IMG/VR virus record: IMGVR_UViG_3300044633_001124
Location: 1 to 26,110 of that record
DNA length: 26,110 nucleotides
Strand: one strand, 5' to 3'
From: a virus
The position numbers and the translations under genes were made by a program. Positions within the stretch are counted from its first letter, which is position 1; the number at the start of each line of letters is the position of its first letter. Shown one piece after another: positions 594-23,783 of the stretch. Under the pieces are notes generated by a model. The model searched no databases. It was given only the letters and a program-made list of their open reading frames with translations, and was not told the origin of the DNA.

Positions 594-1466
594 ATGCCCC
601 GCATCTTCACCGACATCGACGACACCCTTCTGAAAGACGGCCAGCCCGTCGAGCGCGTCATCGACTACATCGACGAGACCGCCGAAGAGGTGGTCGTCCT
701 GACCAACCGCCCGGAGTCCGACCGCGAGAAAACCGTGGCCGACCTCGCCGCCACTGGTCTCGAGTATCAGGAGCTCATCATGAATGACGGCTCCGAAGAG
801 GCTCCCGCCTTTAAGGCCCGCATCATCAAGGAACGCCTCGACGCCGGCGAAGTGGTCGACCTGTTCATCGACAACCGGGCCGACAGCCGCGAGGCCGTGG
901 CCGCCCTGGGCGTCGAAGTCATGGATCCCGCCGCCGTCCCTGAGGTCGTCGAAGAGTCCGAAGAGGAAGTCGAAGACGAGGTCGAAGAGGCCGTCGTCCC
1001 CTCGGCCAAGGTTGCCAATTTCCGCAGGACTAGCATGACCATCGAAGAGCAACTCGTCCAGGCCGCCGCCTCGCTTGCGGGCCTTACCGCTGAACGCGAC
1101 GACCTCCGCACCACTGTCGAGAAGATGACCGTCGGCACCTCTGCCGAACTGGAGTCCCTCAAGGTGGAAGCCGCCGCATCGTCCTCCAAGGTCGCCGAAC
1201 TGACCGCCGCCCTCGAAGCCTCCGCCAAGGAAGCCTCCGAGCTGAAGGCCAAGGTCGCCGAGCTCGAAGGCTCGAAGGCCACCGCCTCGAAGGAAGCCGC
1301 GAAGATCGTCGCCTCCTTCGGCACCGAGCCCGTCGAACTCCCTAAGGGCGACTCCCCGGTCAAGATGAGCAACGCCGACATCAAGGCTGCTTATCTCGCT
1401 CTCCCTCCTGGTCAGGCCCGCATCGCGTTCTTCAACGCGCACAAGGCCGCTCTCATTTCCCTCTAA
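594..1466 (+). CDS. HAD-phosphatase domain fused to coiled-coil scaffold-like region
   Basis: 290 residues from the ATG at 594, chosen because it begins directly with the HAD fold; an in-frame ATG at 552 would overlap the protease gene. Residues 1-115 look like a capless HAD hydrolase: DIDDT at 7-11 (nucleophile Asp7, Asp9), LTN at 36-38 (motif II), lysines 74/79 (motif III) and FIDN with Asp93 (motif IV). An acidic linker follows (about 116-137, rich in Glu and Asp), then from Met148 a long Ala/Glu/Lys heptad-like coiled coil to about 250 and a short C-terminal region. Position between protease and capsid gene, and the coil, suggest a scaffold. Substrate of the HAD domain is unknown; candidates are nucleotide or nucleic-acid 3' phosphates. 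A second start at Met148 is likely and is listed separately. Confidence 0.8.
   Translation: MPRIFTDIDDTLLKDGQPVERVIDYIDETAEEVVVLTNRPESDREKTVADLAATGLEYQELIMNDGSEEAPAFKARIIKERLDAGEVVDLFIDNRADSREAVAALGVEVMDPAAVPEVVEESEEEVEDEVEEAVVPSAKVANFRRTSMTIEEQLVQAAASLAGLTAERDDLRTTVEKMTVGTSAELESLKVEAAASSSKVAELTAALEASAKEASELKAKVAELEGSKATASKEAAKIVASFGTEPVELPKGDSPVKMSNADIKAAYLALPPGQARIAFFNAHKAALISL
1011..1030 (+). promoter_or_regulatory. TTGCCAAT/GCAGG leader motif, copy 1 (inside the HAD-scaffold frame)
   Basis: TTGCCAAT at 1012-1019, 4 nt, GCAGGAC at 1024-1030, then an ATG at 1035. It is the only one of five copies lying well inside a longer reading frame. The AGGA at 1026-1029 is placed as a Shine-Dalgarno for the internal ATG. 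Function of the TTGCCAAT half is unknown. Confidence 0.6.
1035..1466 (+). CDS. Nested in-frame scaffold protein (internal start of the HAD-scaffold gene)
   Basis: Proposed shorter product of 143 residues beginning MTIEEQL, in the same frame as the HAD fusion. The ATG is preceded by the TTGCCAAT-GCAGG motif that precedes four other starts in this window, and by AGGA five to six bases upstream. The product would be nearly all coiled coil (about residues 10-105, Ala/Glu/Lys-rich) plus a C-terminal segment containing ADIKAAYLALPPGQAR, the architecture expected of a phage scaffold. Lambda does the same with Nu3, made from an internal start inside gene C. The coil is seen directly and the separate translation is inferred; the region might instead be made only as part of the fusion. 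Confidence 0.45.
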   Translation: MTIEEQLVQAAASLAGLTAERDDLRTTVEKMTVGTSAELESLKVEAAASSSKVAELTAALEASAKEASELKAKVAELEGSKATASKEAAKIVASFGTEPVELPKGDSPVKMSNADIKAAYLALPPGQARIAFFNAHKAALISL

Positions 1467-1489
1467 CCCTCACTCCCTAACACACTACT

Positions 1490-2368
1490 ATGGCTACCGT
1501 CCTCCCTACCGCTCCGGCTATCCTGTCTGACTACATCGTCCAGACCGTCGCCGGCAAGCTGCCCATCCTCAACAACATCTCCGTCAACCTCTCGGCCTCC
1601 GTCGGCCGCGCGGGCAAAACCGTTTTCGTCCCGATCATGGGTTCGGGCACGGCCTCGGAATTCAACAAGGCCACCAACACCCTCGCGGATGTTGACGGCG
1701 CCACGATGACCAACTCCTCGGTCACCCTCAAACATTTCAAGTACGTCGACGAGTTCAGCCCCCTGGACATCCAGGAGTTCGGCATGCAGTACCTGATCAA
1801 CGCTTACGCGAAGACCGCCGCTCAGGCCATCGTCGACAAGTGCTGGGAAGAAATCGGCGCCGTCTTCACGACCGCCAACTTCGCCACGGAAGAAATCGTC
1901 ACCGTCAATGACTTTGGCTATGACGACGTCGTGAATGCCCAGTTCCTCCTCGACACCGCCAAGGCTGGCCAGCCTCGTTCCTTCCTCGTCGGCAACGGCT
2001 ACCTGAAGGCCCTCCGCAACTCGGCCTCCCTCGTCAGCTCCCTCAACCCGAGCGCCAACACCGTTGTTACCACCGGCAACGTCGGTCAGGTCGCCGGCAT
2101 GGACATCTACCAGTGGAACCAGATCCCGAACGTCGAGAATCTCGCGGGCGTGGCTATGGGCCCGGATTCCCTGCTCGTCGCGACTGGCGTGCCGATGGCT
2201 GAAATCGCCGGCTTCAACGCCAGCGTCGCCACCGCCGAGTCTGGTCTCTCCGTCCAGGTTCTCGTCGGTCAGGCTGAAACGGGCAACATCCGTTGCATCG
2301 CTCAGATCCTCATCGGCGCCAATAAGGGCCGTGGGACGAGTGCTGTCCGCTACGTCACCGCTGCCTAA
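1490..2368 (+). CDS. Major capsid protein (HK97-fold, putative)
   Basis: 292 residues, expected to form the icosahedral shell. The assignment rests on size, position after protease and scaffold, abundance of Ala/Val/Thr/Asn with few Lys/Cys, and P22/HK97-type features: a start AAPAIL-like with SDYIVQTVAGKLP, then a segment with HFKYVDEFSPLDIQEFG (E-loop to spine region), and a C-terminal domain with FLVGNGYLKALRN and GMDIYQWNQIPN. The gene is very even in composition, as expected for strong expression. The 23-nt gap upstream is C/A-rich with no purine-rich ribosome site. It is followed within 20 nt by the best terminator in the window, which would isolate its transcript end. I saw no sign of an N-terminal delta domain, so the scaffold is probably a separate protein. 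Confidence 0.85.
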   Translation: MATVLPTAPAILSDYIVQTVAGKLPILNNISVNLSASVGRAGKTVFVPIMGSGTASEFNKATNTLADVDGATMTNSSVTLKHFKYVDEFSPLDIQEFGMQYLINAYAKTAAQAIVDKCWEEIGAVFTTANFATEEIVTVNDFGYDDVVNAQFLLDTAKAGQPRSFLVGNGYLKALRNSASLVSSLNPSANTVVTTGNVGQVAGMDIYQWNQIPNVENLAGVAMGPDSLLVATGVPMAEIAGFNASVATAESGLSVQVLVGQAETGNIRCIAQILIGANKGRGTSAVRYVTAA

Positions 2369-2388
2369 GCGGCCTGACATCGAAAACG

Positions 2389-2414
2389 GGGGCTCCGCAA
2401 GGGGCCCCTTTTTT
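2389..2414 (+). terminator. Rho-independent terminator after the capsid gene
   Basis: An 8-bp stem (GGGGCTCC at 2389-2396 with GGGGCCCC at 2401-2408, one G-T wobble) closes on a GCAA tetraloop of the stable GNRA type. It is followed by six T at 2409-2414. It sits 21 nt after the capsid stop. Confidence 0.88.
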
Positions 2415-2422
2415 GTGCCTGT
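2411..2422 (+). repeat. TTTTGTGCCTGT, copy 1
   Basis: A 12-base sequence overlapping the T-run of the capsid terminator. It is found again at 12860-12871, also overlapping the T-run of a terminator. Here it runs directly into the TTGCCAAT motif. Confidence 0.6.
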
Positions 2423-2442
2423 TTGCCAATGGCCGCAGGGTT
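2423..2442 (+). promoter_or_regulatory. TTGCCAAT/GCAGG leader motif, copy 2
   Basis: TTGCCAAT at 2423-2430, 4 nt, GCAGGGTTA at 2435-2443 overlapping the ATG at 2443. It lies between the capsid terminator and the head-closure gene, where a new promoter would be needed for the downstream genes. Confidence 0.65.
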
Positions 2443-2820
2443 ATGAGTTTATACTCTGAGTTCCTGCCCGACGCGAAGGAGATGGTCGCCGATTTTGCCG
2501 TGGCCGGTTCGGCCAACTCTGGAGCGATTACATTCGCTTGTCTCATCTCCGACCCCGCCGTGCAGACCGTGCTCGAGGCTGGGGGCTATATGGAGCGAAC
2601 CCAGTACAACGTCCGCCTCCCCGCCGCAACGGCCTCCTGGAGCCTCCCAGATGGGTCTATCGGGGCTTCCACGGCCATCATCGTCGGCGGCTCCCCCATC
2701 GCTTCCCTCGCCCAGGGCAAGAAGATCGTGGCCGGCGGGAAGAACGTCCGCATCACGACCCAGACCTACAAGCCCGGTTCGGCTTGGGTGACCCTCGTCG
2801 TCATCGACGATAACCAGTAA
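2443..2820 (+). CDS. Putative head-closure / head-tail joining protein
   Basis: 125 residues. The start at 2443 is chosen over the in-frame ATG at 2413 because the latter lies inside the terminator T-run, while 2443 follows the conserved leader motif. The protein has an N-terminal helix (SEFLPDAKEMVADFAV) and then a beta-rich body with PDGS..AS, GKKIVAGGKNVRITTQTYK and a C-terminal strand VTLVVID. Size, beta-rich fold and place right after the capsid resemble the lambda FII/SPP1 gp16 class of stopper proteins. That is a context-based guess; no diagnostic motif is visible. Its TAA overlaps the next ATG by one base (TAATG), indicating translational coupling. Confidence 0.7.
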   Translation: MSLYSEFLPDAKEMVADFAVAGSANSGAITFACLISDPAVQTVLEAGGYMERTQYNVRLPAATASWSLPDGSIGASTAIIVGGSPIASLAQGKKIVAGGKNVRITTQTYKPGSAWVTLVVIDDNQ

Positions 2821-3782
2821 TGGCCAAGAAAGGCGCCATCGAGCCGAAGTCCCTCGCTCAGTTCGTGGAGGCCTGTCGCCAGTTTGCGGCTCAGACCGGC
2901 ATCACCATGCGCGACGCCGTCCTCGAGCAAGCGGCCTTTGCTTGCCAAGATGCGGCCATGTTCACCCCTCCATTGCCTAGGGGTGGGGGCAACGGACTAA
3001 GCCCTGGGGCTAAGAAGGCTGGCTTAAAAGCCGTAGCCGGCGACATCTCCAAGATCTTCGTGGCCGCTAACGACTCCTCGGCCAAGGGCAGAGCTGGGAA
3101 CATCGTGAACCAAATTGCATTCGCAGTTAAGGCCGGTGACTTCGGGACTTTTAAACGCCTGACCGATGGCGGCAAGCTACAGGGCATGCTCGGACAACGC
3201 AGCATACTTGCTAAGATTGCGGCAGACGCGGATAAGCAGCGGGCCTTTACCAAGGCTAGGAACTTTCTAAGCCGTGCAAACCCAGTCAAGACGGAGTACG
3301 GCACGCAGGGTTTTGTCCGTGATCTGCGACCGATTCACAACCAGGTTAAAGGGCGGTTCGGCGGACGCATCAAGAAAGGCAACCGGGCAGTGTCCGTCAA
3401 ACTGCTTGTGCAAGATAAGTCCGAGCTCAATGAATACATCCAAAGGCGGCAGCAGATGGTCGGGGCGGTCAAGTCAGGTTGGGCCAAGGCTCTCGCAAGT
3501 CTTCCCCGCCCTAAGGATAACAACGGCCAAAAAGGCGAACCTGGCGCAGAGCTGCGGAAGGCTACTTGGATCACCTTGCATACGGCAATTTCTGGGTACA
3601 ATAGCACGACCTTTACCGATAAGATTTGTGAAGCATCCGTGACTAACAGCCTAGGCAACATCAACGGCATCGCCGACCAAGCCGGCGTTTTAGGGCTGGT
3701 CTACGGTAACCGCGTCAAGCAGATGCCAGGCATGATCCGTCACCGCATGCAAAAACCAATCAATAAGTTTAACCGCAAATAA
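2820..3782 (+). CDS. Putative head-tail/minor tail protein (HK97 gp10 or gpZ-like position)
   Basis: 320 residues with no recognised domain. It is basic, with Lys/Arg-rich stretches such as KGRFGGRIKKGNR and a basic tail ending NKFNRK. The N-terminal third resembles the start of gp10/gpZ-type proteins in having a helix with LAQFVEACRQFAAQTG then FACQDAAMFTPP. The gene sits between the closure protein and the tail-terminator candidate, where that class is expected, but it is about twice the length of HK97 gp10. Base composition is visibly less GC-rich, with more A- and T-ending codons than the capsid gene before it or the gene after it, which suggests recent exchange of this cassette. The start is coupled to the previous stop. 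Confidence 0.72.
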   Translation: MAKKGAIEPKSLAQFVEACRQFAAQTGITMRDAVLEQAAFACQDAAMFTPPLPRGGGNGLSPGAKKAGLKAVAGDISKIFVAANDSSAKGRAGNIVNQIAFAVKAGDFGTFKRLTDGGKLQGMLGQRSILAKIAADADKQRAFTKARNFLSRANPVKTEYGTQGFVRDLRPIHNQVKGRFGGRIKKGNRAVSVKLLVQDKSELNEYIQRRQQMVGAVKSGWAKALASLPRPKDNNGQKGEPGAELRKATWITLHTAISGYNSTTFTDKICEASVTNSLGNINGIADQAGVLGLVYGNRVKQMPGMIRHRMQKPINKFNRK

Positions 3783-3783
3783 C

Positions 3784-4221
3784 ATGGCCTTCACCAAATC
3801 CATCCGCCACATCGTCGAGGGCACGCTCGCGACCTATCTCACCGCCCAGGCTGGTCTCGCCGGCGTGGCCATCCTCACGGGTGACAGCGCCGCGACCCAG
3901 ACCCTGCCGAAGGCCGTCGTCCTCTGCGACTCCGCCCGGGCCCCTGGCGACCTCCCCGAAGGCCTCGGGAATTACGATTGCTCCGTCCGCGTGACCCTGT
4001 TCTCGAACGCCGACGACACGACGCTGGCCGTCCACCGCGAACGCTGCGCCGCCCTTTCGGACTGCATGAAAAGTTTTGATTTGATTGAAGCCGCCTTTGC
4101 GGCTGGAGGTTCCGCGATCTGTTACGACTTGTCTTATCGCTCCGAAGACGAGGGCATCGACGAGCGCTCCTGGGCGACTTCCTTTGCCTTCGACGTCCTC
4201 ACTTGCCTGAACCCCGAGTAG
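3784..4221 (+). CDS. Putative tail terminator protein (gpU/DUF3168-like)
   Basis: 145 residues. The pattern is an N-terminal helix (SIRHIVEGTLATYLT), a strand pair with KAVVLCDSA, a central strand NYDCSVRVTLFSNADD, a helix HRERCAALSDCMKSFDLIEAAF, and late strands CYDLSYRSEDEG and WATSFAFDVLTC. That alternation and length fit the tail terminator/neck proteins that stop tube growth and join the tail to the head. Its position just before the tail tube candidate agrees. High-GC composition returns here. The start follows the previous stop as TAA-C-ATG, a junction form seen at three other places in the window. Function is inferred from fold pattern and order. Confidence 0.75.
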   Translation: MAFTKSIRHIVEGTLATYLTAQAGLAGVAILTGDSAATQTLPKAVVLCDSARAPGDLPEGLGNYDCSVRVTLFSNADDTTLAVHRERCAALSDCMKSFDLIEAAFAAGGSAICYDLSYRSEDEGIDERSWATSFAFDVLTCLNPE

Positions 4222-4222
4222 G

Positions 4223-4244
4223 TTGCCAATTAAAGCAGGAGTAA
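4223..4244 (+). promoter_or_regulatory. TTGCCAAT/GCAGG leader motif, copy 3
   Basis: TTGCCAAT at 4223-4230, 4 nt, GCAGGAGTAA at 4235-4244, ATG at 4246. It begins immediately after the previous stop codon and fills the whole 24-nt gap. AGGAG is a good Shine-Dalgarno here. Confidence 0.65.
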
Positions 4245-4245
4245 G

Positions 4246-4626
4246 ATGAGCGAAGTAAACAAAGGCGTGGTGTGCTTGTACGGAATCGGCGCCGGCCAGC
4301 AGGCCTCGCTTTACGTTCAAAGCTACACGGTCACCTCTAATTTCAACAACTCGGCGACCGTCATGGATGAGGATGGCCTCACCGTAACCGCCCGTTACGA
4401 CGACAGGAAATCCGAAATTAACATTGAAGGCGTGGCCAAGGCCACCAGCGTTCCGGCCCTTGGGACGACCCTGTCCTTTACGGCCAAGACTGCGTCTGCT
4501 TACCCGGGCGGAGCGGCTTCTGTTTCTTTCAGCGGAACGGTGACAAAGGTAGACGACAAGGGCTCGAGCTCTGGATTCGTCAGCGTCTCAGTCACTGCTG
4601 AGTCCTACGAGACCATCACCTATTAA
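4246..4626 (+). CDS. Putative major tail tube protein
   Basis: 126 residues, almost entirely beta-strand in character with many Ser, Thr, Val and Gly. Strands visible are QSYTVTSNFNNSATVMDEDG, TVTARYDDRKSEINIEG, TTLSFTAKTAS, ASVSFSGTVTKVDDKG and FVSVSVTAESYETITY. Such a small beta-sandwich between tail terminator and tape-measure candidates is where the tail tube subunit belongs; the polypeptide is short for a tube protein. Being structural it should be strongly made, and it has its own leader motif with the best ribosome site of the five copies. An alternative is a beta-rich neck or minor tail protein. Confidence 0.68.
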   Translation: MSEVNKGVVCLYGIGAGQQASLYVQSYTVTSNFNNSATVMDEDGLTVTARYDDRKSEINIEGVAKATSVPALGTTLSFTAKTASAYPGGAASVSFSGTVTKVDDKGSSSGFVSVSVTAESYETITY

Positions 4627-4653
4627 TTGACACCCCCGAAAGTGGGGTAGGCT
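4627..4653 (+). promoter_or_regulatory. Candidate promoter with small hairpin in the tail module
   Basis: TTGACA at 4627-4632 is a perfect -35 box just after the tail-tube stop. Downstream, TAGGCT at 4648-4653 gives a 15-nt spacer, which is short, and the 17-nt position reads GGCTAG, so the -10 is poor. The spacer also forms a short hairpin, ACCCC with GGGGT around a GAAA-containing loop. There is no T-run, so it is unlikely to terminate. Confidence 0.35.
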
Positions 4654-4660
4654 AGGGGGA

Positions 4661-5245
4661 GTGGATCGTCGCTTCCTGAATGCCCACATCGACCCGGCTC
4701 CTTTTAGGATTCTGGGTCGAACTCTTTACCCGTTTTGCCTTAAGTACCGCGTGCGCCTGCATGCGTTAGACTCTCCCCTGGTTACCGGTGCCCGTGGGGT
4801 TACCCCGTCCGATCTCATCTTCGCCTGCCAAGTCTGCGCCGAGGAGCCCCTGGGCGGACTCGGGTTCATGGACAAGATGCGCGTCATATATCTTAACGAG
4901 AACTTTCCACATTTCGAGCGTCTGCTAAAAGCTTTCTCTGATTATGTTCTGATTCACGACTGGCCTAAGTTCTGGGAGCAAACGAACAAGAAAAGCGGAG
5001 GAAGCAAAGGCCCGCCATGGCCGCTGTCGATTGTGGCAAACCTAGTGGCGAACGGCGTGCCATATAAGCAAGCATGGGAAATGCCCGAGTGCCAAGCCAT
5101 CTGGCTGAACGCGGCCTTCGCCATGCGCAAGGGTGTCGACGTGGCGATCATGTGCCCGGAGGAAGAGGCCTTCATCGAGTCAGAGCTAAAGCGCGAAGCC
5201 GAAGAAGCCGCGGCCGCCAAAGCCGTTGCCAATCCAGCAGGGTAA
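4661..5245 (+). CDS. Putative tail assembly chaperone
   Basis: 194 residues starting at GTG 4661, preceded at once by a G-rich stretch (AGGGGGA) that is too close to be a normal ribosome site, so the start is uncertain. The sequence is alpha-helical with an N-terminal part FRILGRTLYPFCLKYRV and a region PSDLIFACQVCAEEP. It ends with PPWPLSIVANLVANGVPYK, WLNAAFAMRKGVDVAIM and a Glu/Ala-rich tail. Position between the tube and tape-measure candidates and helical, acidic-tailed character fit a tail assembly chaperone. I found no slippery site or second frame that would make a longer gpGT-like product. Composition is lower in GC than the early genes. Confidence 0.65.
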   Translation: MDRRFLNAHIDPAPFRILGRTLYPFCLKYRVRLHALDSPLVTGARGVTPSDLIFACQVCAEEPLGGLGFMDKMRVIYLNENFPHFERLLKAFSDYVLIHDWPKFWEQTNKKSGGSKGPPWPLSIVANLVANGVPYKQAWEMPECQAIWLNAAFAMRKGVDVAIMCPEEEAFIESELKREAEEAAAAKAVANPAG

Positions 5246-5246
5246 A
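5226..5246 (+). promoter_or_regulatory. TTGCCAAT/GCAGG leader motif, copy 4
   Basis: TTGCCAAT at 5226-5233, 3 nt, GCAGGGTAAA at 5237-5246, ATG at 5253. This copy lies across the last codons of the previous gene, so the motif is kept at the DNA or RNA level even where it must also encode protein. Confidence 0.62.
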
Positions 5247-5252
5247 GAGACC

Positions 5253-6020
5253 ATGGCCCAAGACCTGACCGTAAACATCAAGACGACCTCCGACGTCCCC
5301 CAGGCTATGGGTAAGGCTGGCGCGGCCGTAAGCAACTTTGACAAGCAGTTGTCAGGCATCGGGCAGGCGTTTAGTAATTCTTTCAAGAGTATCTTCCTTT
5401 CATTCCTCGGGCCGATGGCGCTGCTTACCGGGGCGATGGCTCTGATCGGCAAGCTTATTGCGGATAATCAAAAGAAACGAGAGGACGCAAACCAGGCAGC
5501 AATCGATGACACAAACAAGCTCATGTCTTCTGAGGACAAGTACTGGGCCAGAAAGCGCGAAAGACAAAAGCAAAGCCAAGAATCAACAGAAGAAGCGAAG
5601 ACTCAAAGAATCACGACTACGGAGGAATTTCTTTCTAAAGACCCGCGCGGTAAACAATTATGGAAAGACATCCAAGCGGGCCGACATTCTATCAAACCTT
5701 TTACCGCATCTCACAGGGCAATCAAAGATCCTGAGCTTCAAAAAGAAGTTCAAAGAATGCTCTCAGAAGACATTCAAAATGACCCCCAAAGCGGTGCAGC
5801 TTTAGAAAGTAAAAACGAAAAGGCCGGCACCTTCAAAGGCCCCGAAGGCTTCGGCAATGTGATCGGCGTGGGCGCCAACCCGGTCATGGAAGCGATGACC
5901 AGACAGACCGAAGTCCTCGAGGAAATCAAAGCCGTCCTCGAATCGCAACGCTCCTCCGGCGGCGTTCCTCCTCCCTTCACTGAAAAGCCGATGTCCACCC
6001 GAACCATCTTTAACGTATAA
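5253..6020 (+). CDS. Very short tape-measure protein candidate
   Basis: 255 residues from the ATG at 5253, chosen over an in-frame TTG at 5226 because it follows the leader motif. The N-terminal 50 residues (AVSNFDKQLSGIGQAFSNSFK) resemble the start of tape-measure proteins. A hydrophobic segment at about 50-72 (LSFLGPMALLTGAMALIGKL) could be a membrane helix, followed by a charged Lys/Glu/Gln-rich helical stretch to about 200 and a Pro-rich C-terminus. Tape-measure proteins normally exceed 600 residues; no other gene here could be one. If it is one, at roughly 0.15 nm per residue the tail would be near 38 nm. The middle (about 5440-5820) is conspicuously A-rich, unlike the flanks. Confidence 0.68.
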   Translation: MAQDLTVNIKTTSDVPQAMGKAGAAVSNFDKQLSGIGQAFSNSFKSIFLSFLGPMALLTGAMALIGKLIADNQKKREDANQAAIDDTNKLMSSEDKYWARKRERQKQSQESTEEAKTQRITTTEEFLSKDPRGKQLWKDIQAGRHSIKPFTASHRAIKDPELQKEVQRMLSEDIQNDPQSGAALESKNEKAGTFKGPEGFGNVIGVGANPVMEAMTRQTEVLEEIKAVLESQRSSGGVPPPFTEKPMSTRTIFNV

Positions 6021-6021
6021 C

Positions 6022-6858
6022 ATGGCCCTTGTATCAAACGGAAACCCCCTAAGCGCACCGGTCATCCTCCCGGGCTGGACGTACAACCGCGACCCGTTCG
6101 GCCTCGGCACTTCGACTACAAAGTACAAGTGTAATTGGGACGTAGACATGGCGGCCTTTGCTGCCCGCGGTCAACCGCACCCTGACTCGACTTATTCCTT
6201 CCTCAAGGCCAACTCCTATTCCATCAGCTGGGACTCCTTGGACATTGCGACTCTGACCGTGGACTACGTCGGCATCCCGCCTAGCGTGAACGGGGGCGTA
6301 TACACCAACCCGAACACGTCCTCGGCCAACGGCTTGACCGCGGAGAACATCACGAGCCACCCCAACTTCTTTAGCCTGCAAGCTGGCTTCCTTGGCCCAA
6401 TCGCTGGCCCTTCTCCCTATACCCAGGACGCCCCGGACAACCTTGCCCCAGTCGTCAACGGCAAGCCCGCTTTCCTCGGTCTTAACGGATCGTGCTTCGA
6501 GAAGGCGAGCGGCGGCCGCTTCATCGGCTTTGTCGACCCGACTTATCCTCAATACTACGGCAAGACCCAGTACCTGGCTAAGACCTCTACCTACTCGGGC
6601 GTGATGTACACGACCCAGCTCGGGAACGTGCAAGCCCTTCTTGGACTTCTGAACACGGCCACGGCGACTAACTCATGGGGAGCGTCTTTCCCTCTTCTCC
6701 CCGCATGGGCACCGGTAGGCGTGGGCGACTTCGGAAACAACGTGAACCTCCTTTCTCAGGTCAACGTCGAGGAGTACGGTTCTCTTTACAAAATGATGTA
6801 TGAAATCCGTTATGCCAAGGCCGGCTGGGAGCGCGACGTCTACGTCAACCTAGCCTGA
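6022..6858 (+). CDS. Tail-tip structural protein, unknown family
   Basis: 278 residues, no recognised domain. It is rich in aromatic residues, Gly, Asn and Pro (for example VILPGWTYNRDPFGLGTS, YSISWDSLDIATLTVDYVG, YPQYYGKTQYLAK), as seen in virion proteins, and lacks a signal peptide. It follows the tape-measure candidate with a TAA-C-ATG junction and precedes another large virion-type gene, so a distal tail or baseplate role is likely. The C-terminus NVEEYGSLYKMMYEIRYAK looks like the end of a beta-sandwich. I cannot name a family. Confidence 0.72.
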   Translation: MALVSNGNPLSAPVILPGWTYNRDPFGLGTSTTKYKCNWDVDMAAFAARGQPHPDSTYSFLKANSYSISWDSLDIATLTVDYVGIPPSVNGGVYTNPNTSSANGLTAENITSHPNFFSLQAGFLGPIAGPSPYTQDAPDNLAPVVNGKPAFLGLNGSCFEKASGGRFIGFVDPTYPQYYGKTQYLAKTSTYSGVMYTTQLGNVQALLGLLNTATATNSWGASFPLLPAWAPVGVGDFGNNVNLLSQVNVEEYGSLYKMMYEIRYAKAGWERDVYVNLA

Positions 6859-8288
6859 TGAGCATCCAGCCAGGAGTCGGCTATACTTTCACTTCGTCCA
6901 GCCAAGGGACGAACATGAACATCGAGACTCCCTGGAGCGAATGGGATTCCTCGGCGGTCATCGACCGAACCTATCAGCAGTTCCAACTGCGCTCCGTCCG
7001 CGTCGGCACGACCAACAAGCTGCAACTGGCCAAGGGCACGGTGGCCTTCACGCAGAGCAACATGCCCCGCGTCAGGCTTGGCGGCCATTACGACCAGCGC
7101 CAGACATGGATCAGCAAGGTCGCCGTCTACGGCTCCGGCGTCTCCCGCACGGCCGGCGCTGCCCCTGCGTCGGACATCTGGATGGAAGCGGGCGGATACT
7201 ATAACATCACGACCGCGGGGACGTACTACGTCACGGTCAGCAAGTTCGACATTAACCAGTCTAACGACGACACCGAGTCGGCCCTACTCAACGCCGAAGC
7301 CCCTTGGGTGTCCATCTTCCCCGCCGGCGACGCCATCGAGTCGGCCATCTTCTCCGAGACGGGGCCGTCCGAGTACGTCAACAAGACGAACGTGCAGAAG
7401 ATGGTCGGCTATGACGCCATGTCCACCGGCCTACCGGGCGACTGGGGCAACTGCCACACGACTTGGTTCAACCCGGTCAAGTGGGGGTACTCCGTCAAGC
7501 TCATCGCAACCGTCACGGCTACGGCAAACCCTCTCGGCGAAGGCATGGTCTTCTCCATCGACCAGCACATCGTCGGGCCTATCGACCTCCAGATTCCCGT
7601 CCTATTCATCGGGACGACCCTCTGCAATCAGGACGACCTGACCGAGACGAACGACCCCTATAACCTGAACAAGGACTCCGACCCCGCATGGTCTTTCATC
7701 GTCAACGCCGACACCCTTACCGCGTTGAACACGATCACCCCCGCTAACGACGACTGGTTCCAGGAGTTCGTCGGGCCGGCCGACTGGACTTCGACCAACT
7801 ACATCGGGCTCACCGCGGGAAGCTGCGCGGCTCAGGACGACAACGCTTGCGAGCATCCGTTCCAGTTCCACCCCTTCACCGTTGCAAGCGGGGAGAGCTT
7901 CCTCTTCCGGGCCAACGTCTGCGCCGGCATGGCCAACAACCTCGTCCCCCTCGACGAGCCTGGCTCGGGCACGCTGCTCCCCGCGACCATCGACTTCCTC
8001 ACGACGGGGGACACCTTTATCTATCTCCGCATGGGCACGGAGGCCTACGCGTCGAGCGCCCCCGTCTTCCCGGTCACGGACGTCACGGACGAGTACTACC
8101 CGACGATCGTGCAGTCCCCGACGGCCCTCACGGATACCGACGAGTATTGCTATATCCTCATGGGCATGGCGCGCAACGTCGGCGACCCCGACACCTTCAC
8201 CGTCGACCAGACCATCTCCGGCTCTGTCTGGGCCGAGCGTCTTAAGATCGGCGAAGAAACCGCCCGTTACTACTGGGCGGGAGTCTAA
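6858..8288 (+). CDS. Large tail-tip/virion protein, unknown family
   Basis: 476 residues, coupled to the previous gene by TGATGA with its ATG at 6858. It is beta-rich, with a high content of Thr, Asp, Ser, Pro and Tyr and few Lys. There are several short repeats of acidic-aromatic type such as TAGTYYVTVSKFDIN, GDTFIYLRMGTEAY and TDTDEYCYILMGMA, consistent with surface-exposed beta-sandwich domains. Five or more Cys are spread along the chain. No protease, lysozyme or hub motif was found. By order it lies where tail hub or tail-associated proteins are found; function is not determined by the sequence alone. Confidence 0.72.
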   Translation: MSIQPGVGYTFTSSSQGTNMNIETPWSEWDSSAVIDRTYQQFQLRSVRVGTTNKLQLAKGTVAFTQSNMPRVRLGGHYDQRQTWISKVAVYGSGVSRTAGAAPASDIWMEAGGYYNITTAGTYYVTVSKFDINQSNDDTESALLNAEAPWVSIFPAGDAIESAIFSETGPSEYVNKTNVQKMVGYDAMSTGLPGDWGNCHTTWFNPVKWGYSVKLIATVTATANPLGEGMVFSIDQHIVGPIDLQIPVLFIGTTLCNQDDLTETNDPYNLNKDSDPAWSFIVNADTLTALNTITPANDDWFQEFVGPADWTSTNYIGLTAGSCAAQDDNACEHPFQFHPFTVASGESFLFRANVCAGMANNLVPLDEPGSGTLLPATIDFLTTGDTFIYLRMGTEAYASSAPVFPVTDVTDEYYPTIVQSPTALTDTDEYCYILMGMARNVGDPDTFTVDQTISGSVWAERLKIGEETARYYWAGV

Positions 8289-8779
8289 TGCCTATCCGCA
8301 TCGGAGGCCCGTCAACGGGAAGCCCTGCCACGGTTCCTCCGTGCACCTGGGGTTCCATGCGCTCGCCGATTGTGCTTAACGGTTTTCTGCACGGCGCATC
8401 CTATACGCGTTTCTCTCGTGCTTGGCCGTCGTCGTCTAGCCCGATTAAGTTCTTTAAATGGGAAAGCGGCTCCCTGTTCAGGCAAAGGCCCTACGCTTCC
8501 TTCGGCCCTGCTGCCCCGCCCTTGCTTCCGTATTACTGGATTTTTGCAGAAGAGTTTGACGGCACCACATACACGAACTGGGGAATCGGCGTTTATACAA
8601 AGCCCTACATGGCCGTAGACAATTCAGACTTCCTTCAGCTTGTCGGCGAAGCCGTCGACACCGACATCGGCACGTTTATTATCACGGCAGACGCGCATGA
8701 GGGAGACGGTCAGAACCTTTCCACGGCCACCCCTGGCGGGACAGAGATCTACGACATAGGCAAACTGACCGGGTTCTGA
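8288..8779 (+). CDS. Small virion-associated protein, unknown
   Basis: 163 residues, starting at ATG 8288 in a TAATG overlap with the gene before it. It is Gly/Pro/Ser/aromatic-rich (PSTGSPATVPPCTWGS, WAPSSSS-like Ser run, PYYWIFAEEFDG). No domain is recognised. The late-module position and residue composition suggest a tail-tip or fibre-base protein. Composition is slightly less GC-rich than the 476-residue neighbour. Confidence 0.62.
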   Translation: MPIRIGGPSTGSPATVPPCTWGSMRSPIVLNGFLHGASYTRFSRAWPSSSSPIKFFKWESGSLFRQRPYASFGPAAPPLLPYYWIFAEEFDGTTYTNWGIGVYTKPYMAVDNSDFLQLVGEAVDTDIGTFIITADAHEGDGQNLSTATPGGTEIYDIGKLTGF

Positions 8780-8786
8780 CCTCCCC

Positions 8787-8808
8787 TTGCCAATCTCCGC
8801 AGGGTTAA
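8787..8808 (+). promoter_or_regulatory. TTGCCAAT/GCAGG leader motif, copy 5
   Basis: TTGCCAAT at 8787-8794, 4 nt, GCAGGGTTAA at 8799-8808, ATG at 8818. It fills the 38-nt gap before the fibre-associated gene. Here GCAGG lies 19 bases before the ATG, farther than a normal ribosome site, which argues that the motif is not only a Shine-Dalgarno. Confidence 0.65.
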
Positions 8809-8817
8809 GAAGACCCG

Positions 8818-9141
8818 ATGAGCTGCTCCAATACCGCCGTATTCTCCCGAGGGGACAGTTTCTCCAGCGTCTGGACTTGGGTTCCCGGGGCCGGCGAGCC
8901 CGTCAATCTCCTCGGCACGACCATCGCCTCGACCCTCCGCGATCGGAGCGGGAAGGAATACCCGCTCGTAATCGTGCTCGCCGTCAATGGCCTGTCCTTT
9001 ACGGCCACCTTCCCCGGTGACACCGCCGACTGGGCGCTCGGCCTTGCGAGCTGGGACATCCGCTTCACCTTCCCGGGCGGCCCCGTGACGCATTCGACCA
9101 TCTTCCGCGTGCAGATCCAGGAGACCATCACTCAAGCTTAA
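8818..9141 (+). CDS. BppU N-terminal-like tail fibre/baseplate protein
   Basis: 107 residues forming a plausible single Ig-like beta domain. The opening FSRGDSFSSVWTW, the central LLGTTIASTLRDRSGKEYPL and the closing WDIRFTFPGGPVTHSTIFRVQIQETIT follow the pattern of the BppU/DUF2479 N-terminal domain, in which 'DIxF...G...TI..G...I...IT' ends the sandwich. These domains anchor receptor-binding proteins to the tail. The gene lies directly before the collagen-like fibre (next ATG two bases after the stop), which fits an adaptor that attaches the fibre. It is shorter than BppU, so it would be the anchoring domain alone. Confidence 0.72.
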   Translation: MSCSNTAVFSRGDSFSSVWTWVPGAGEPVNLLGTTIASTLRDRSGKEYPLVIVLAVNGLSFTATFPGDTADWALGLASWDIRFTFPGGPVTHSTIFRVQIQETITQA

Positions 9142-9142
9142 C

Positions 9143-10939
9143 ATGGCGACCATCAACGGAACATTCAACAGCCTGATCGCGGGAACGCTGTCGGGCACCG
9201 TCGCCACCCCTGGCGCTACTGGCCCTGCCGGCCCCGCTGGCCCGACCGGCCCGACGGGCGCTCAGGGCATCCCAGGCGTGGGCGTCCCCGCTGGCGGCAG
9301 CACGGGGCAGTTCCTGACCAAGTCGAGCAACCTCGATTACGCGACTGGCTGGTCTACCCTATCTCTCGCCGGCTACGCGACCGAGTCTTGGGTGACCGCT
9401 GGCTTCTATCCCCTGACGGGTAACCCTTCGGGCTTCCTGACGGCCTCGGCGCTTACGCCCTACCTGACCAAAGCCGACAACCTCGGCTCCCTGACCAACT
9501 TCGCCACGGCCCGCGATAACCTCAACCTAGGCACGCTCAATAACCCGACCTTTGCCGGCCTTACGCTGCAAGGCTCAGGCGCTAACGTCGGCCAGTATAC
9601 GCCGACCTCCCTGAGCCTTAGCCATACGACCTTCGGTTCCTTCGTGATCTCGCCCTCCTCGGGCATAACGTTCCCTGACACCTCCATTCAGACGACTGCC
9701 TTCGTCGCCGGCTCCGGCTTGCCCACTGGCGGCACGGTCGGCCAAGTCCTGACGAAGAACTCGGGCACGAACTTCGACGCGTCCTTTGCGACGCTCATCC
9801 CGGGCGACCGCTACCTGACGACCTCGACGACGAGCAACACCCTTAGCAATACGACTAAAACCTTCACGATTGGCACCGGCCTCTCTTACACGCCGACCCA
9901 AAGCATCACGATCTCTTACGACGCGTCGAACCATATGCACGGCGAGGTGCTGACGTACAACTCCGGCACTGGCGTCCTGACCGTGGACATCAATCACCAC
10001 ACCGGGTCGGGAACGTACGCCTCTTGGACGGTCAACGTGGGCGGGGTTGTCCCTGCGGCCTCCGTTGCCTGGGGCGGCATCACCGGCACGCTCGGCAATC
10101 AGACCGACCTTGCGACGGCGCTGAATGCGAAGCTCGAAGTCACGACCGCGGCCTCGACCTACTTCACGATCGCATCGGCTGCGGGCAAGGCGAACCTCTC
10201 CGGGGCGACGTTCACGGGCAAGGTCAACCTCCCAGACCTCGGCGTAAACACTCCTTCTCTGAACCTCGGCGGCACGGCCCTAAGCACGACCGCTACTTCG
10301 GCGGCCTCTGGCGATGTTTGGATCTCTGGAGCGACGTCCCCGAAACTCACCTACAAGGTCGGCGGCGCTAACCTTTATTGTGCGACCTCGAACCTGACGA
10401 ATACTTTTACGTCTTCGCAAATCATCGACGTCACGACGGCGACGTCTGCGGCCCTGCGCGTCACGCAAAAGGGAACGGCAAACGCCATCGAAGTCGAGGA
10501 CAGCACGTCCCCTGACTCGACCCGCTTCGCCGTGGATCAGTTCGGCAAGGTCGGCATCGGCGTCGCCCCGGATGGCACGGCTGCGCTGAAGGTGGACACG
10601 AACGGGATTATGTTCGGAGACGGTTCGGTGCAGACCACGGCGGCGACGGGTGCGAATTACATTAACCGTTTATGGCTGTCTCAGAACTTTTGGGGACAAG
10701 TATCCAGCGGGTCTTATGACTCAATGATGAATAGGTTTACATTTTATCATTCTAGCTCAGTCATTGACGCTATCATCGCAGATAGCGGTGCCATCTTTAG
10801 TTTTAACGGGAATGACTATTCTGTAACTTACTCTGCTGCCGGAGAGGTTGGTATCTCTGGTGACGCAACTGGATATAATGTTTATATCACCACGCCTCCA
10901 AACTTGTCCCTGCCAGGTTATTTCAAATATTTCCCATAA
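9143..10939 (+). CDS. Tail fibre with collagen-like segment
   Basis: 598 residues. The N-terminus is followed by eight Gly-X-Y triplets at about residues 24-47, with Pro in many X positions: a collagen-like trimer stalk. Downstream are fibre-type repeats with GQFLTKSS, GQVLTKNS and NFATARDNLNLG, and two copies of the fibre motif 'F-(D/G)-D/GS-(I/V)QTTA' near residues 180 and 496. The block from about 225 to 290 (TFTIGTGLSYTP, VDINHHTGSG) is a beta-structured shaft domain. From about residue 505 to the end, the DNA is strikingly AT-richer and the protein has more Tyr, Ile and Phe, marking a replaceable receptor-binding tip. Start is two bases after the previous stop. Fibre call is strong; receptor unknown. 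Confidence 0.88.
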   Translation: MATINGTFNSLIAGTLSGTVATPGATGPAGPAGPTGPTGAQGIPGVGVPAGGSTGQFLTKSSNLDYATGWSTLSLAGYATESWVTAGFYPLTGNPSGFLTASALTPYLTKADNLGSLTNFATARDNLNLGTLNNPTFAGLTLQGSGANVGQYTPTSLSLSHTTFGSFVISPSSGITFPDTSIQTTAFVAGSGLPTGGTVGQVLTKNSGTNFDASFATLIPGDRYLTTSTTSNTLSNTTKTFTIGTGLSYTPTQSITISYDASNHMHGEVLTYNSGTGVLTVDINHHTGSGTYASWTVNVGGVVPAASVAWGGITGTLGNQTDLATALNAKLEVTTAASTYFTIASAAGKANLSGATFTGKVNLPDLGVNTPSLNLGGTALSTTATSAASGDVWISGATSPKLTYKVGGANLYCATSNLTNTFTSSQIIDVTTATSAALRVTQKGTANAIEVEDSTSPDSTRFAVDQFGKVGIGVAPDGTAALKVDTNGIMFGDGSVQTTAATGANYINRLWLSQNFWGQVSSGSYDSMMNRFTFYHSSSVIDAIIADSGAIFSFNGNDYSVTYSAAGEVGISGDATGYNVYITTPPNLSLPGYFKYFP

Positions 10940-12798: not shown

Positions 12799-12820
12799 GT
12801 GGCACATTAGCCTTAGTAAA

Positions 12821-12863
12821 CCCCCCGGCCCTCTCAACGATGGTTTCTCTCGGGGGGTCTTTT
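12821..12863 (+). terminator. Probable terminator between late and early regions
   Basis: A perfect 7-bp GC stem, CCCCCCG (12821-12827) with CGGGGGG (12851-12857), has a 23-nt loop and is followed by TCTTTT. The loop is long, but the stem and T-rich tail suit intrinsic termination. It shares the downstream TTTTGTGCCTGT with the capsid terminator. Confidence 0.65.
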
Positions 12864-12871
12864 GTGCCTGT
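12860..12871 (+). repeat. TTTTGTGCCTGT, copy 2
   Basis: Exact 12-base match to 2411-2422, in the same place relative to a terminator T-run. The gap to 12941 also carries TTGACG at 12892 and another TTGACG at 12781, possible -35 boxes without a convincing -10. Confidence 0.55.
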
Positions 12872-12941
12872 CAAAAGTTTCGGCAAAAGAGTTTGACGGA
12901 ATGCATTTGGTCTGAGAGATTGGTCTGGCACCACAAAAAAC

Positions 12942-22502: not shown

Positions 22503-22680
22503 GGGGTCTCCTCTCCTTCACCCCCTTAAGCCCCCCTCTTTCCGCCTAATCATGACCTCGTCACTAGGGTATGCAAGTCCGTCTACCGCAGGGGTAGTTA
22601 TTTATACTTCTACCCCCTCTGCTGGCGCGACGGGGGAAGATAAATAATATTCAGGCCGCAAGCCTCCCGAGTCTACGCAC
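22503..22680 (+). other. Non-coding AT-rich segment with overlapping inverted repeats (candidate origin or control region)
   Basis: A 178-nt gap, one of the longest in the window, directly after the helicase. Hairpin A pairs GGGGTAG (22591-22597) with CTACCCC (22610-22616), 12-nt loop. Hairpin B pairs TTATTTAT (22598-22605), CTTC (22607-22610) and CCCC (22613-22616) with GGGG (22632-22635), GAAG (22636-22639) and ATAAATAA (22640-22647). A and B share bases and so exclude each other. A small hairpin AGGC/GCCT (22653-22665) follows. AT-rich DNA beside a helicase gene suits an origin; two exclusive hairpins also suit an attenuator or operator. Confidence 0.55.
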
Positions 22681-23097
22681 ATGCCTAGGAAACTCTCCGC
22701 CAAGCAACTGGCCTACCTCTCAGTCCGCCGCGAGATCTCTAAGCGCCGACGCTGGCTCTGGAAAAACAAAAGACAGGTCATGGAGAAGGGTCGGCTCAAG
22801 GCCACCGCCAGGGCCACCGAGATCAGAGACGGGGCGAAGACCTACCTCCTCGAGACCGTCAGAGATTGGCCGGCAACCCTGACACCCGCGCAGCTCGACG
22901 CCCTGCTCCTGGACATCCCCTATACCCGAAAGGGCAAGAAGCGACGCAAGCGCCGTGACTCCCTGATCCGCCGGCTCCGCCTCCTCGGCCTCATCGATTA
23001 CGTCCCGAGGACTAACACCTGGCACAACCTTTGCACGTTGCCCCCGTCAAAACCTTCAGCACCGTCCGAGATGAATGACCAAGGCCCGACTGAATGA
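22681..23097 (+). CDS. Basic hypothetical protein, 138 residues
   Basis: Very basic N-terminal half (RREISKRRRWLWKNKRQV, KGRLKATARATEIR), then LTPAQLDALLLDIPYTRKGKKRRKRRDSLIRRLRLLGLIDYVPRTNTWHNL. That part reads as a winged helix: recognition-like helix SLIRRLRLLGLI with a wing. DNA binding is likely; family not recognised. It follows the control region, with no ribosome site visible, and its 3' end overlaps the next gene by 23 nt. Confidence 0.6.
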   Translation: MPRKLSAKQLAYLSVRREISKRRRWLWKNKRQVMEKGRLKATARATEIRDGAKTYLLETVRDWPATLTPAQLDALLLDIPYTRKGKKRRKRRDSLIRRLRLLGLIDYVPRTNTWHNLCTLPPSKPSAPSEMNDQGPTE

Positions 23098-23593
23098 CCT
23101 GACCGCTCCGGCGGAAGAGGCACGGTCTTTCGACGCATGGTTCTTCTCTCAGCCGAAGAAGGTGCAAGAGAAGATGCGCAACTCCGGCGTGCTGCCTTAC
23201 CGCGAGATGGTGCAGTCTCGGCACGTCTTCAAGGTGAAGGACGAGCACACCGCCTGGATGAACACCGGCACGGATGAGCACGTCGAGGTCGATGCCTTCA
23301 TCAGTCGAGACCTAGTGGCCGTGATGCTCAAGGCCTTCATCGATGCCCTGGCTATGTCCGACAACTTCTACTTCCGCCGGCACGTCGAGCTCATCAGGTG
23401 GGCGCTCAGTCTTCCCGGCTGTCTGTCGTCGCGTATGATCGCACGGATGTATGGCAAATCCCATGAGGCCATGCGCAAGCGAGCCAGGGCCATCCAGTTG
23501 TCCGTCAACTCCGACGCCCACGGCCTGTTCCCTCACTGCAACTCTAAGCGCGATAAGATGCGCGTATCATTCGACCGCCATATAGCGTCATAA
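23075..23593 (+). CDS. Hypothetical protein, 172 residues, before terminase
   Basis: Starts inside the previous gene (23-nt overlap). The C-terminal third has an HTH-like segment (LSSRMIARMYGKSHEAMRKRARAIQL) and a basic tail. The N-terminal part has FFSQPKKVQEKMRNSGVLPYREMV. As the last gene before the terminase pair, it might be a late regulator. I recognise no family. Confidence 0.55.
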   Translation: MTKARLNDLTAPAEEARSFDAWFFSQPKKVQEKMRNSGVLPYREMVQSRHVFKVKDEHTAWMNTGTDEHVEVDAFISRDLVAVMLKAFIDALAMSDNFYFRRHVELIRWALSLPGCLSSRMIARMYGKSHEAMRKRARAIQLSVNSDAHGLFPHCNSKRDKMRVSFDRHIAS

Positions 23594-23783
23594 ATATATG
23601 ATTACTTGTCGTTTAGATATGAGCGAGGCCTTTCGTATCGCTTTCCCCACTACGGACAACCGCCCTAAGGAATCTCTTTTGGGCCTTATTCCGCCGCGTT
23701 GGACGGCACCTGCCCCTCTTTTTTACGAGGGGAAACGAAGGTTTTGACCAAAACAGCAAACGGGGGAACTCCAGCACTCGGCC
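23594..23783 (+). promoter_or_regulatory. 190-nt non-coding leader of terminase genes with hairpin and dyad
   Basis: It holds a 6-bp hairpin CCCCTC (23713-23718)/GAGGGG (23727-23732) with a TTTTTTAC loop. It also holds a 6-bp dyad GTTTTG (23741-23746)/CAAAAC (23749-23754) two bases apart, an operator-like site. An AT-rich start (ATATATGATTACTTGTC) lies at 23594. A promoter could be here, but no good -35/-10 pair is visible. No ORF is credible. Confidence 0.5.

Follow-up and report, generated by a model that had tools for sequence, protein, structure and literature searches.

The window analysed here is an IMG/VR virus record (IMGVR_UViG_3300044633_001124) of 26,110 bases, and its late, morphogenesis genes are marked by a short repeated motif, TTGCCAAT followed by GCAGG, which stands just upstream of start codons. 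A scan of the window located exact TTGCCAAT at 1012, 2423, 4223, 5226 and 8787, always on the + strand and never on the – strand. By chance 0.28 copies would be expected, and five or more were seen in 0 of 100 shuffles. The bipartite form, TTGCCAAT-N3/4-GCAGG, is found at the same five positions only, with 0 expected in shuffled sequence. The initial annotation had described five such copies before start codons on this strand; their positions and spacing are confirmed. The sites are as follows, with the number of distinct relatives that carry each; the conserved A is defined in the next section.

1012–1032, + strand: motif copy upstream of ATG 1035, the in-frame start of the nested scaffold; conserved A at 1032; 50 of 53 distinct relatives
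2423–2443, + strand: motif copy downstream of the terminator that follows the capsid gene; 32 of 34 distinct relatives
4223–4243, + strand: motif copy before gene 4246–4626; 56 of 59 distinct relatives
5226–5245, + strand: motif copy with a gap of 3, within the end of gene 4661–5245 and before gene 5253–6020
8787–8807, + strand: motif copy before gene 8818–9141 (PHROG 1084-like); 40 of 41 distinct relatives

Counted from the G of GCAGG, the ATG lies 11, 8, 11, 16 and 19 bases away in these copies, respectively, the same set of values as first recorded. Allowing two mismatches brought up just two unrelated places (25323 on the + strand and 9876 on the – strand), so the window has no hidden copies, and its early half holds no motif copy. 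The earlier statement that there are no other copies thus stands for the window, on both strands, but not as a total. The window ends right after terL and so lacks the sequence from there to the capsid protease gene, and in relatives a sixth copy precedes a small gene just after terL. Five is therefore an undercount, because the contig ends exclude the sixth site. The definition of the motif likewise needed extension: the full form is longer than described, (S)GTTGCCAAT-N3/4-GCAGG-N2/3-TAAR.

To gather relatives, we searched with the terminase, the capsid protein, the candidate regulator and the terminase of a sister clade, which yielded more than 300 loci. The phage family is large and undescribed, with hundreds of records in public metagenomes. 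A phage collection held no relatives by DNA, none for the capsid protein or the candidate regulator, and only distant terminases. Across the first 1.3 Mb of relatives, TTGCCAAT occurs 443 times in the forward and 13 times in the reverse orientation, and 365 and 0 times when GCAGG is required; frequent copies on the opposite strand, which would have spoken against the motif, are not seen. The most complete relatives of the window's own clade (clade A) have exactly six copies, all on the late strand. Upstream regions were then picked by gene orthology, independently of the motif, and distinct cases were counted. The core (N)T(N)CCA-N2-N3/4-GCA is present in 287 of 298 such regions, with the N3/4 spacer bases free to vary and the core constant. 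Conservation in relatives is thus very strong, and the view that the motif is functional, associated with starts, confined to late genes and kept at the nucleic-acid level holds.

The sister clade (clade B), whose terminase is 76–80% identical, lacks TTGCCAAT. At the same starts, and on one strand only, it carries TTCCAWW-N3/4-GCAW or a form close to it. The motif has changed together at six sites, each before an unrelated gene, which argues that a trans-acting factor reads it. Such concerted change excludes both chance and a plain ribosome-binding site.

Anatomy and genomic setting of the element

Taken as a whole, the element is compact (21–24 bp), reading TTGCCAAT-N3/4-GCAGG-N2/3-TAAR in clade A and TTCCAWW-N3/4-GCAW-N-YAAR in clade B. 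The gap is 3 bases at the 5253 site in 52 of 52 relatives and 4 bases elsewhere (235 of 235). The base at GCA+8 is A in 285 of 287 sites, mostly followed by A and a purine, and this A is kept also where the ATG is at least 13 bases away. Start codons lie 8–25 bases after GCA and never nearer than 8; in the closest case the conserved A doubles as the first base of the ATG, as at copy 2423, where the A at 2443 begins gene 2443–2820. Hence the ATG distance varies widely while the conserved A stays at a fixed place relative to the motif. This pattern fits the conserved A being the 5' end of the mRNA, which would be leaderless or have a short leader.

Several known geometries were compared with the element and rejected. 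Motif alignments show no conserved upstream or –10 columns, and a scan with the sigma70 consensus gave matches at chance level. Hexamers 16–18 bp apart with a start about 7 bp downstream, the sigma70 arrangement, are not found. Sigma70, sigma54 and sigma28 geometries either do not match or have no room before the ATG (the latter two compared by eye). A Shine-Dalgarno site, with complementarity to the anti-Shine-Dalgarno sequence and a fixed spacing of 5–9 nucleotides, is at odds with a distance of 8–25 bases and with the loss of GCAGG in clade B; the earlier point that a ribosome site alone would not suffice is borne out. An RNA hairpin with compensatory change also fails, as pair 2–13 is 100% paired in clade A and 0% in clade B, uncompensated. 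The suggestion that TTG-C-CAA is a small dyad is likewise unsupported, since the sister clade is without the G (TTNCCAWW).

Three further features bear on the setting of the element:

2388–2416, + strand: intrinsic terminator after the capsid gene, with 9 pairs and a T run, ending about 7 bases before the motif
12893–12921, + strand: sigma70-like promoter, TTGACG-N17-GAGATT, upstream of the first early gene (ATG 12942)
7790–8719 of clade B contig L071/G006, opposite strand of the late region: antisense ligase-like gene, also in L064, L297, L333 and L342

The element stands at the first gene of each late cluster. The terminator before copy 2423 is the only strong one of the late region, and its run of six or more T residues is kept in 34 of 34 distinct relatives. 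Late genes that lack the motif mostly overlap the preceding gene or adjoin it. Two others, the capsid gene and gene 4661, have clear upstream gaps and lack the motif throughout (0 of 45 and 0 of 42), as expected if they share transcripts with the scaffold and tube genes, respectively, from those sites. Gene 4246–4626 is tail-tube-like, judged by position.

Five clade B contigs have the antisense gene inserted between genes 2820 and 3784; from its KxDG motif it looks like an ATP-dependent DNA ligase. A TTGAC element faces this gene, about 10 bases to the left of a new motif copy facing gene 3784. The extra motif before gene 3784 is present in 5 of 5 contigs with the ligase-like gene versus 3 of 71 without it. 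That a late gene cut off from its operon carries the motif favours a transcription start, although lost translational coupling is also a possible reason.

Early genes are served differently. In 13 of 17 genomes, a single, conserved TTGACG-N17-nAnnnT lies about 20 bases upstream of the ATG of the first early gene. Early and late starts thus look different, with the early promoter resembling an ordinary sigma70 promoter.

Other features of the region were seen in passing. Open reading frame (ORF) 552–1466 is a fusion of a kinase/phosphatase-like front and a coiled-coil scaffold, with the internal in-frame start at 1035, and resembles the nested protease/scaffold genes of lambda. The sister clade has the two parts as separate genes, with a stop codon just before the motif at the scaffold gene. 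At the late/early junction (12820–12870), a long G/C stem with a T run (CCCCCCGGCCC...GGGGGGTCTTTT), present in several relatives, is a likely late terminator. Early genes (13318, 13594, 16133, 16367 and 17656) share C-rich leaders in both clades, e.g. CTTTCCCACC-ATG, and the capsid gene leader (1467–1489), AACCCTCA...CTAACACA-ATG, is also conserved in both; these leaders are another start-associated pattern without a Shine-Dalgarno sequence.

A candidate reader of the motif

23075–23593, + strand: 172-residue protein with a C-terminal helix-turn-helix (HTH), candidate reader of the motif; last gene before the apparent genome end

Which genes track motif type was compared across 8 clade A and 9 clade B genomes. 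Those that separate strictly with it are the capsid and packaging genes, the gene for the 172-residue protein, which adjoins terS, and a few replication genes or genes without an assigned function. In the 172-residue protein, the second HTH helix starts with HEAMRKRAR in clade A; in clade B it starts with HFWMRxRAK or similar sequences. Helix type matches motif type in all contigs that hold both (26 of clade A, about 35 of clade B and 0 mixed). A third regulator type, with an HIW helix, is found in genome G017; it adds no independent event, because the G017 motif is B-like. Sequence searches with the protein returned no significant relative. AlphaFold2 gave a confident HTH part (pLDDT ∼84–89). 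We regard this protein as the best candidate for the reader of the motif. Genes 16133 and 17287 also track motif type and, with no DNA-binding signature seen, are weaker candidates. Genes 13594 (a small HTH protein) and 22681 were rejected as specificity factors, as they recombine freely between motif types.

Upstream of this gene, the intergenic region before genes 22681–23075 contains a structured RNA with a long stem (22545–22668). Several compensatory pairs support the stem among 21 distinct relatives, e.g. UUAUUUAUACUUC/GAAGAUAAAUAA versus UAUUUAAUAACG/CGUAUUAAAUA, and a hairpin alternates between CUACC/GGUAG and CUCCC/GGGAG. A pseudoknot (CCGUC/GACGG) is possible, and the crossed-stem order recalls HDV-like ribozymes; Rfam gave no match. 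Antisense pairing of the motif with this RNA was considered and rejected, since both clades share the same variants of it.

In many relatives the contig ends between gene 23075 and terS (window 23594–23783); genomes G016–G018, G020 and G021 are 28.9–29.6 kb. These ends suggest that the virion genome probably has fixed, cos-like termini. Conserved blocks CCCCCTAAGGAATCT and GCGTTGGACGACACCTGCCC lie in the same region.

Comparison with known phage signals

Ranked by terminase E-value, the isolate closest to these phages is Verrucomicrobia phage P8625 of Puniceicoccales, and one relative lies within a metagenome-assembled genome of Opitutae. On these grounds, the host probably belongs to Opitutae (Verrucomicrobiota). 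P8625 has sigma70-like promoters, TTGMCA-N17-TATNNG, exactly 7 bases before four ATGs, with ∼0.1 expected per strand in mononucleotide shuffles. One of these promoters directly follows a terminator ending in TTTTTTGTGCC, the same as in the window's terminator. This placement indicates that late ATGs of a related phage have promoters set right against them. The P8625 late promoters were found in the present analysis and have no description in PMC4642752. We also noticed that the annotated TTG start of P8625 gp13 falls on a –35 box (TTGCCA-N17-TATTGG; NC_029047.1, our locus L364, 9620–9656); translation probably begins instead at the in-frame ATG at 9656.

The two phages have much in common: a host probably of the same class, a signal before late genes, among them the small one that follows terL and the one downstream of the capsid terminator, and an ATG set at the start point. 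They differ in that P8625 has a standard TTGMCA-N17-TATNNG with 36 bases to the ATG, whereas the window's motif covers 20–37 bases and has no –10 element. The P8625 promoters are the closest comparison by lineage; among elements already described, the SAS and ESAS of cluster K mycobacteriophages come nearest. The SAS is a 13-bp sequence, GGGATAGGAGCCC, with a Shine-Dalgarno core, located 3–7 bp from the start codon in the non-structural half of the genome (PMC3203893). According to the cluster K papers its role is unclear, presumably in translation, and the ESAS contain SigA-like promoters. Both systems have a short asymmetric repeat in one orientation directly before many starts, a host without it, and subcluster-specific variants of the associated repeat. 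The motif studied here is itself repeated, oriented, immediately upstream of starts and absent from the host, where background matches in the Opitutae genome fall on both strands (27 and 28). Unlike the SAS and ESAS, it has an unrelated sequence, no Shine-Dalgarno core and no –35/–10 elements, and precedes late structural genes only. The motif is not a cluster K SAS, which is defined as GGGATAGGAGCCC with up to two mismatches: that consensus is unlike the motif logos.

Promoters of T7-type single-subunit phage RNA polymerases are compact, with ∼23 contiguous bases ending at +1. The element is similarly compact and, given the presumed start, would end at +1; it differs in tolerating a spacing of 3 or 4 and in having no cognate polymerase recognised here. 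For phages of the P2 Ogr, Mu C and RinA/ArpU types, a small phage DNA-binding protein activates late genes through host RNA polymerase, and the –10 element is kept. A small candidate DNA-binding protein encoded near terS recalls these systems. The motif departs from them in having no –10, and our searches found no sequence relation between protein 23075 and those families.

Interpretation of the element

Taken together, these observations make it probable, on sequence evidence, that the motif is a phage-specific late promoter, i.e. a transcription initiation element, of phages probably infecting Opitutae. It is found at late units and absent from early ones, where TTGACG-N17-nAnnnT is used. 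Transcription would start at the conserved A (GCA+8, taken as +1), placing the two parts at –20 to –13 and –8 to –4 and giving late mRNAs that are leaderless or have leaders of 1–17 nucleotides. A phage protein, for which the HTH protein encoded at 23075–23593 is the best candidate, may bring host RNA polymerase to the motif; its predicted recognition helix appears to differ between clades in step with the motif. The earlier proposal of a late promoter or activator site has thereby gained specific support, with an mRNA element still the alternative. We suggest more tentatively a promoter class without –35/–10, in which elements at –20 and –8 plus an initiator A are read by host RNA polymerase, which a small phage HTH protein retargets to make leaderless late mRNAs in Verrucomicrobia phages, with at least two coevolved specificities (TTGCCAAT/GCAGG and TTCCAWW/GCAW).

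A number of points weigh against a promoter. The most serious is that this geometry has no room for a –10 element, coupled with the failure to recognise an RNA polymerase gene. If transcription begins at the ATG or upstream of it, a –10 hexamer would coincide with the unconserved NNNN and GC. A phage RNA polymerase gene was not recognised in these 29-kb genomes, in which terL, fibre, portal and helicase explain the large ORFs; a search with PF00940 gave no match, its positive control likewise being without signal. The AlphaFold2 model of the 172-residue protein is weak overall (pLDDT 61, from 38 sequences, after a still weaker first model). Foldseek found nothing significant for this protein, the best matches being DnaA, sigma region 4 and response-regulator HTHs (E 0.16 or worse), and its weak profile matches are terminase small subunits. 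The A/B split is also a single divergence, and the HTH–motif link is a correlation. Given neither a –10 element nor a recognised phage polymerase, either a protein retargets host RNA polymerase in an unusual manner or the element acts in RNA.

An element acting in RNA would lie within a polycistronic late mRNA, where a phage protein licenses or represses the next start, or where RNase cutting yields leaderless mRNAs. That the motif is always 8–25 bases from a start codon and has no sigma70 geometry would suit this explanation, as would the motif-free genes, which mostly overlap or abut the upstream gene and could be translationally coupled; the ligase-like insertion breaks coupling too. Yet the capsid gene and gene 4661 are uncoupled and never have the motif, the hairpin shows no covariation (pair 2–13 being lost in clade B), and the ATG distance varies while the conserved A is fixed to the motif. 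Moreover, the candidate reader has a modelled HTH, a DNA-binding fold, and variants of the phage's own structured RNA do not follow motif type. We consider this explanation unlikely, though it deserves serious weight.

Far less plausible is an operator at which a repressor or roadblock protein keeps late genes silent early in infection, comparable to the stoperators of cluster A mycobacteriophages. Although an operator would account for a single orientation, a location between genes and a trans-acting reader, the motif is tied to start codons even inside an ORF (1012), one copy is placed after a terminator, where transcription needs no stopping, and there is no other promoter visible for it to control. 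Chance, common ancestry of the flanks or an ordinary ribosome-binding site is extremely improbable: AGG does precede the ATG in clade A and the phages are related, but one sequence is common to six unrelated genes, the core is constant next to freely varying N3/4 bases, GCAGG becomes GCAAN in clade B, and ATG distances reach 25 bases.

Gene control in Verrucomicrobia phages is essentially undescribed. If the promoter reading is correct, a late promoter, its presumed start point, a second coevolved specificity and a candidate activator would all have been obtained from sequence alone, and the promoter layout would fall outside sigma70 rules. The element also helps to annotate late genes, as with the nested scaffold start inside ORF 552–1466.

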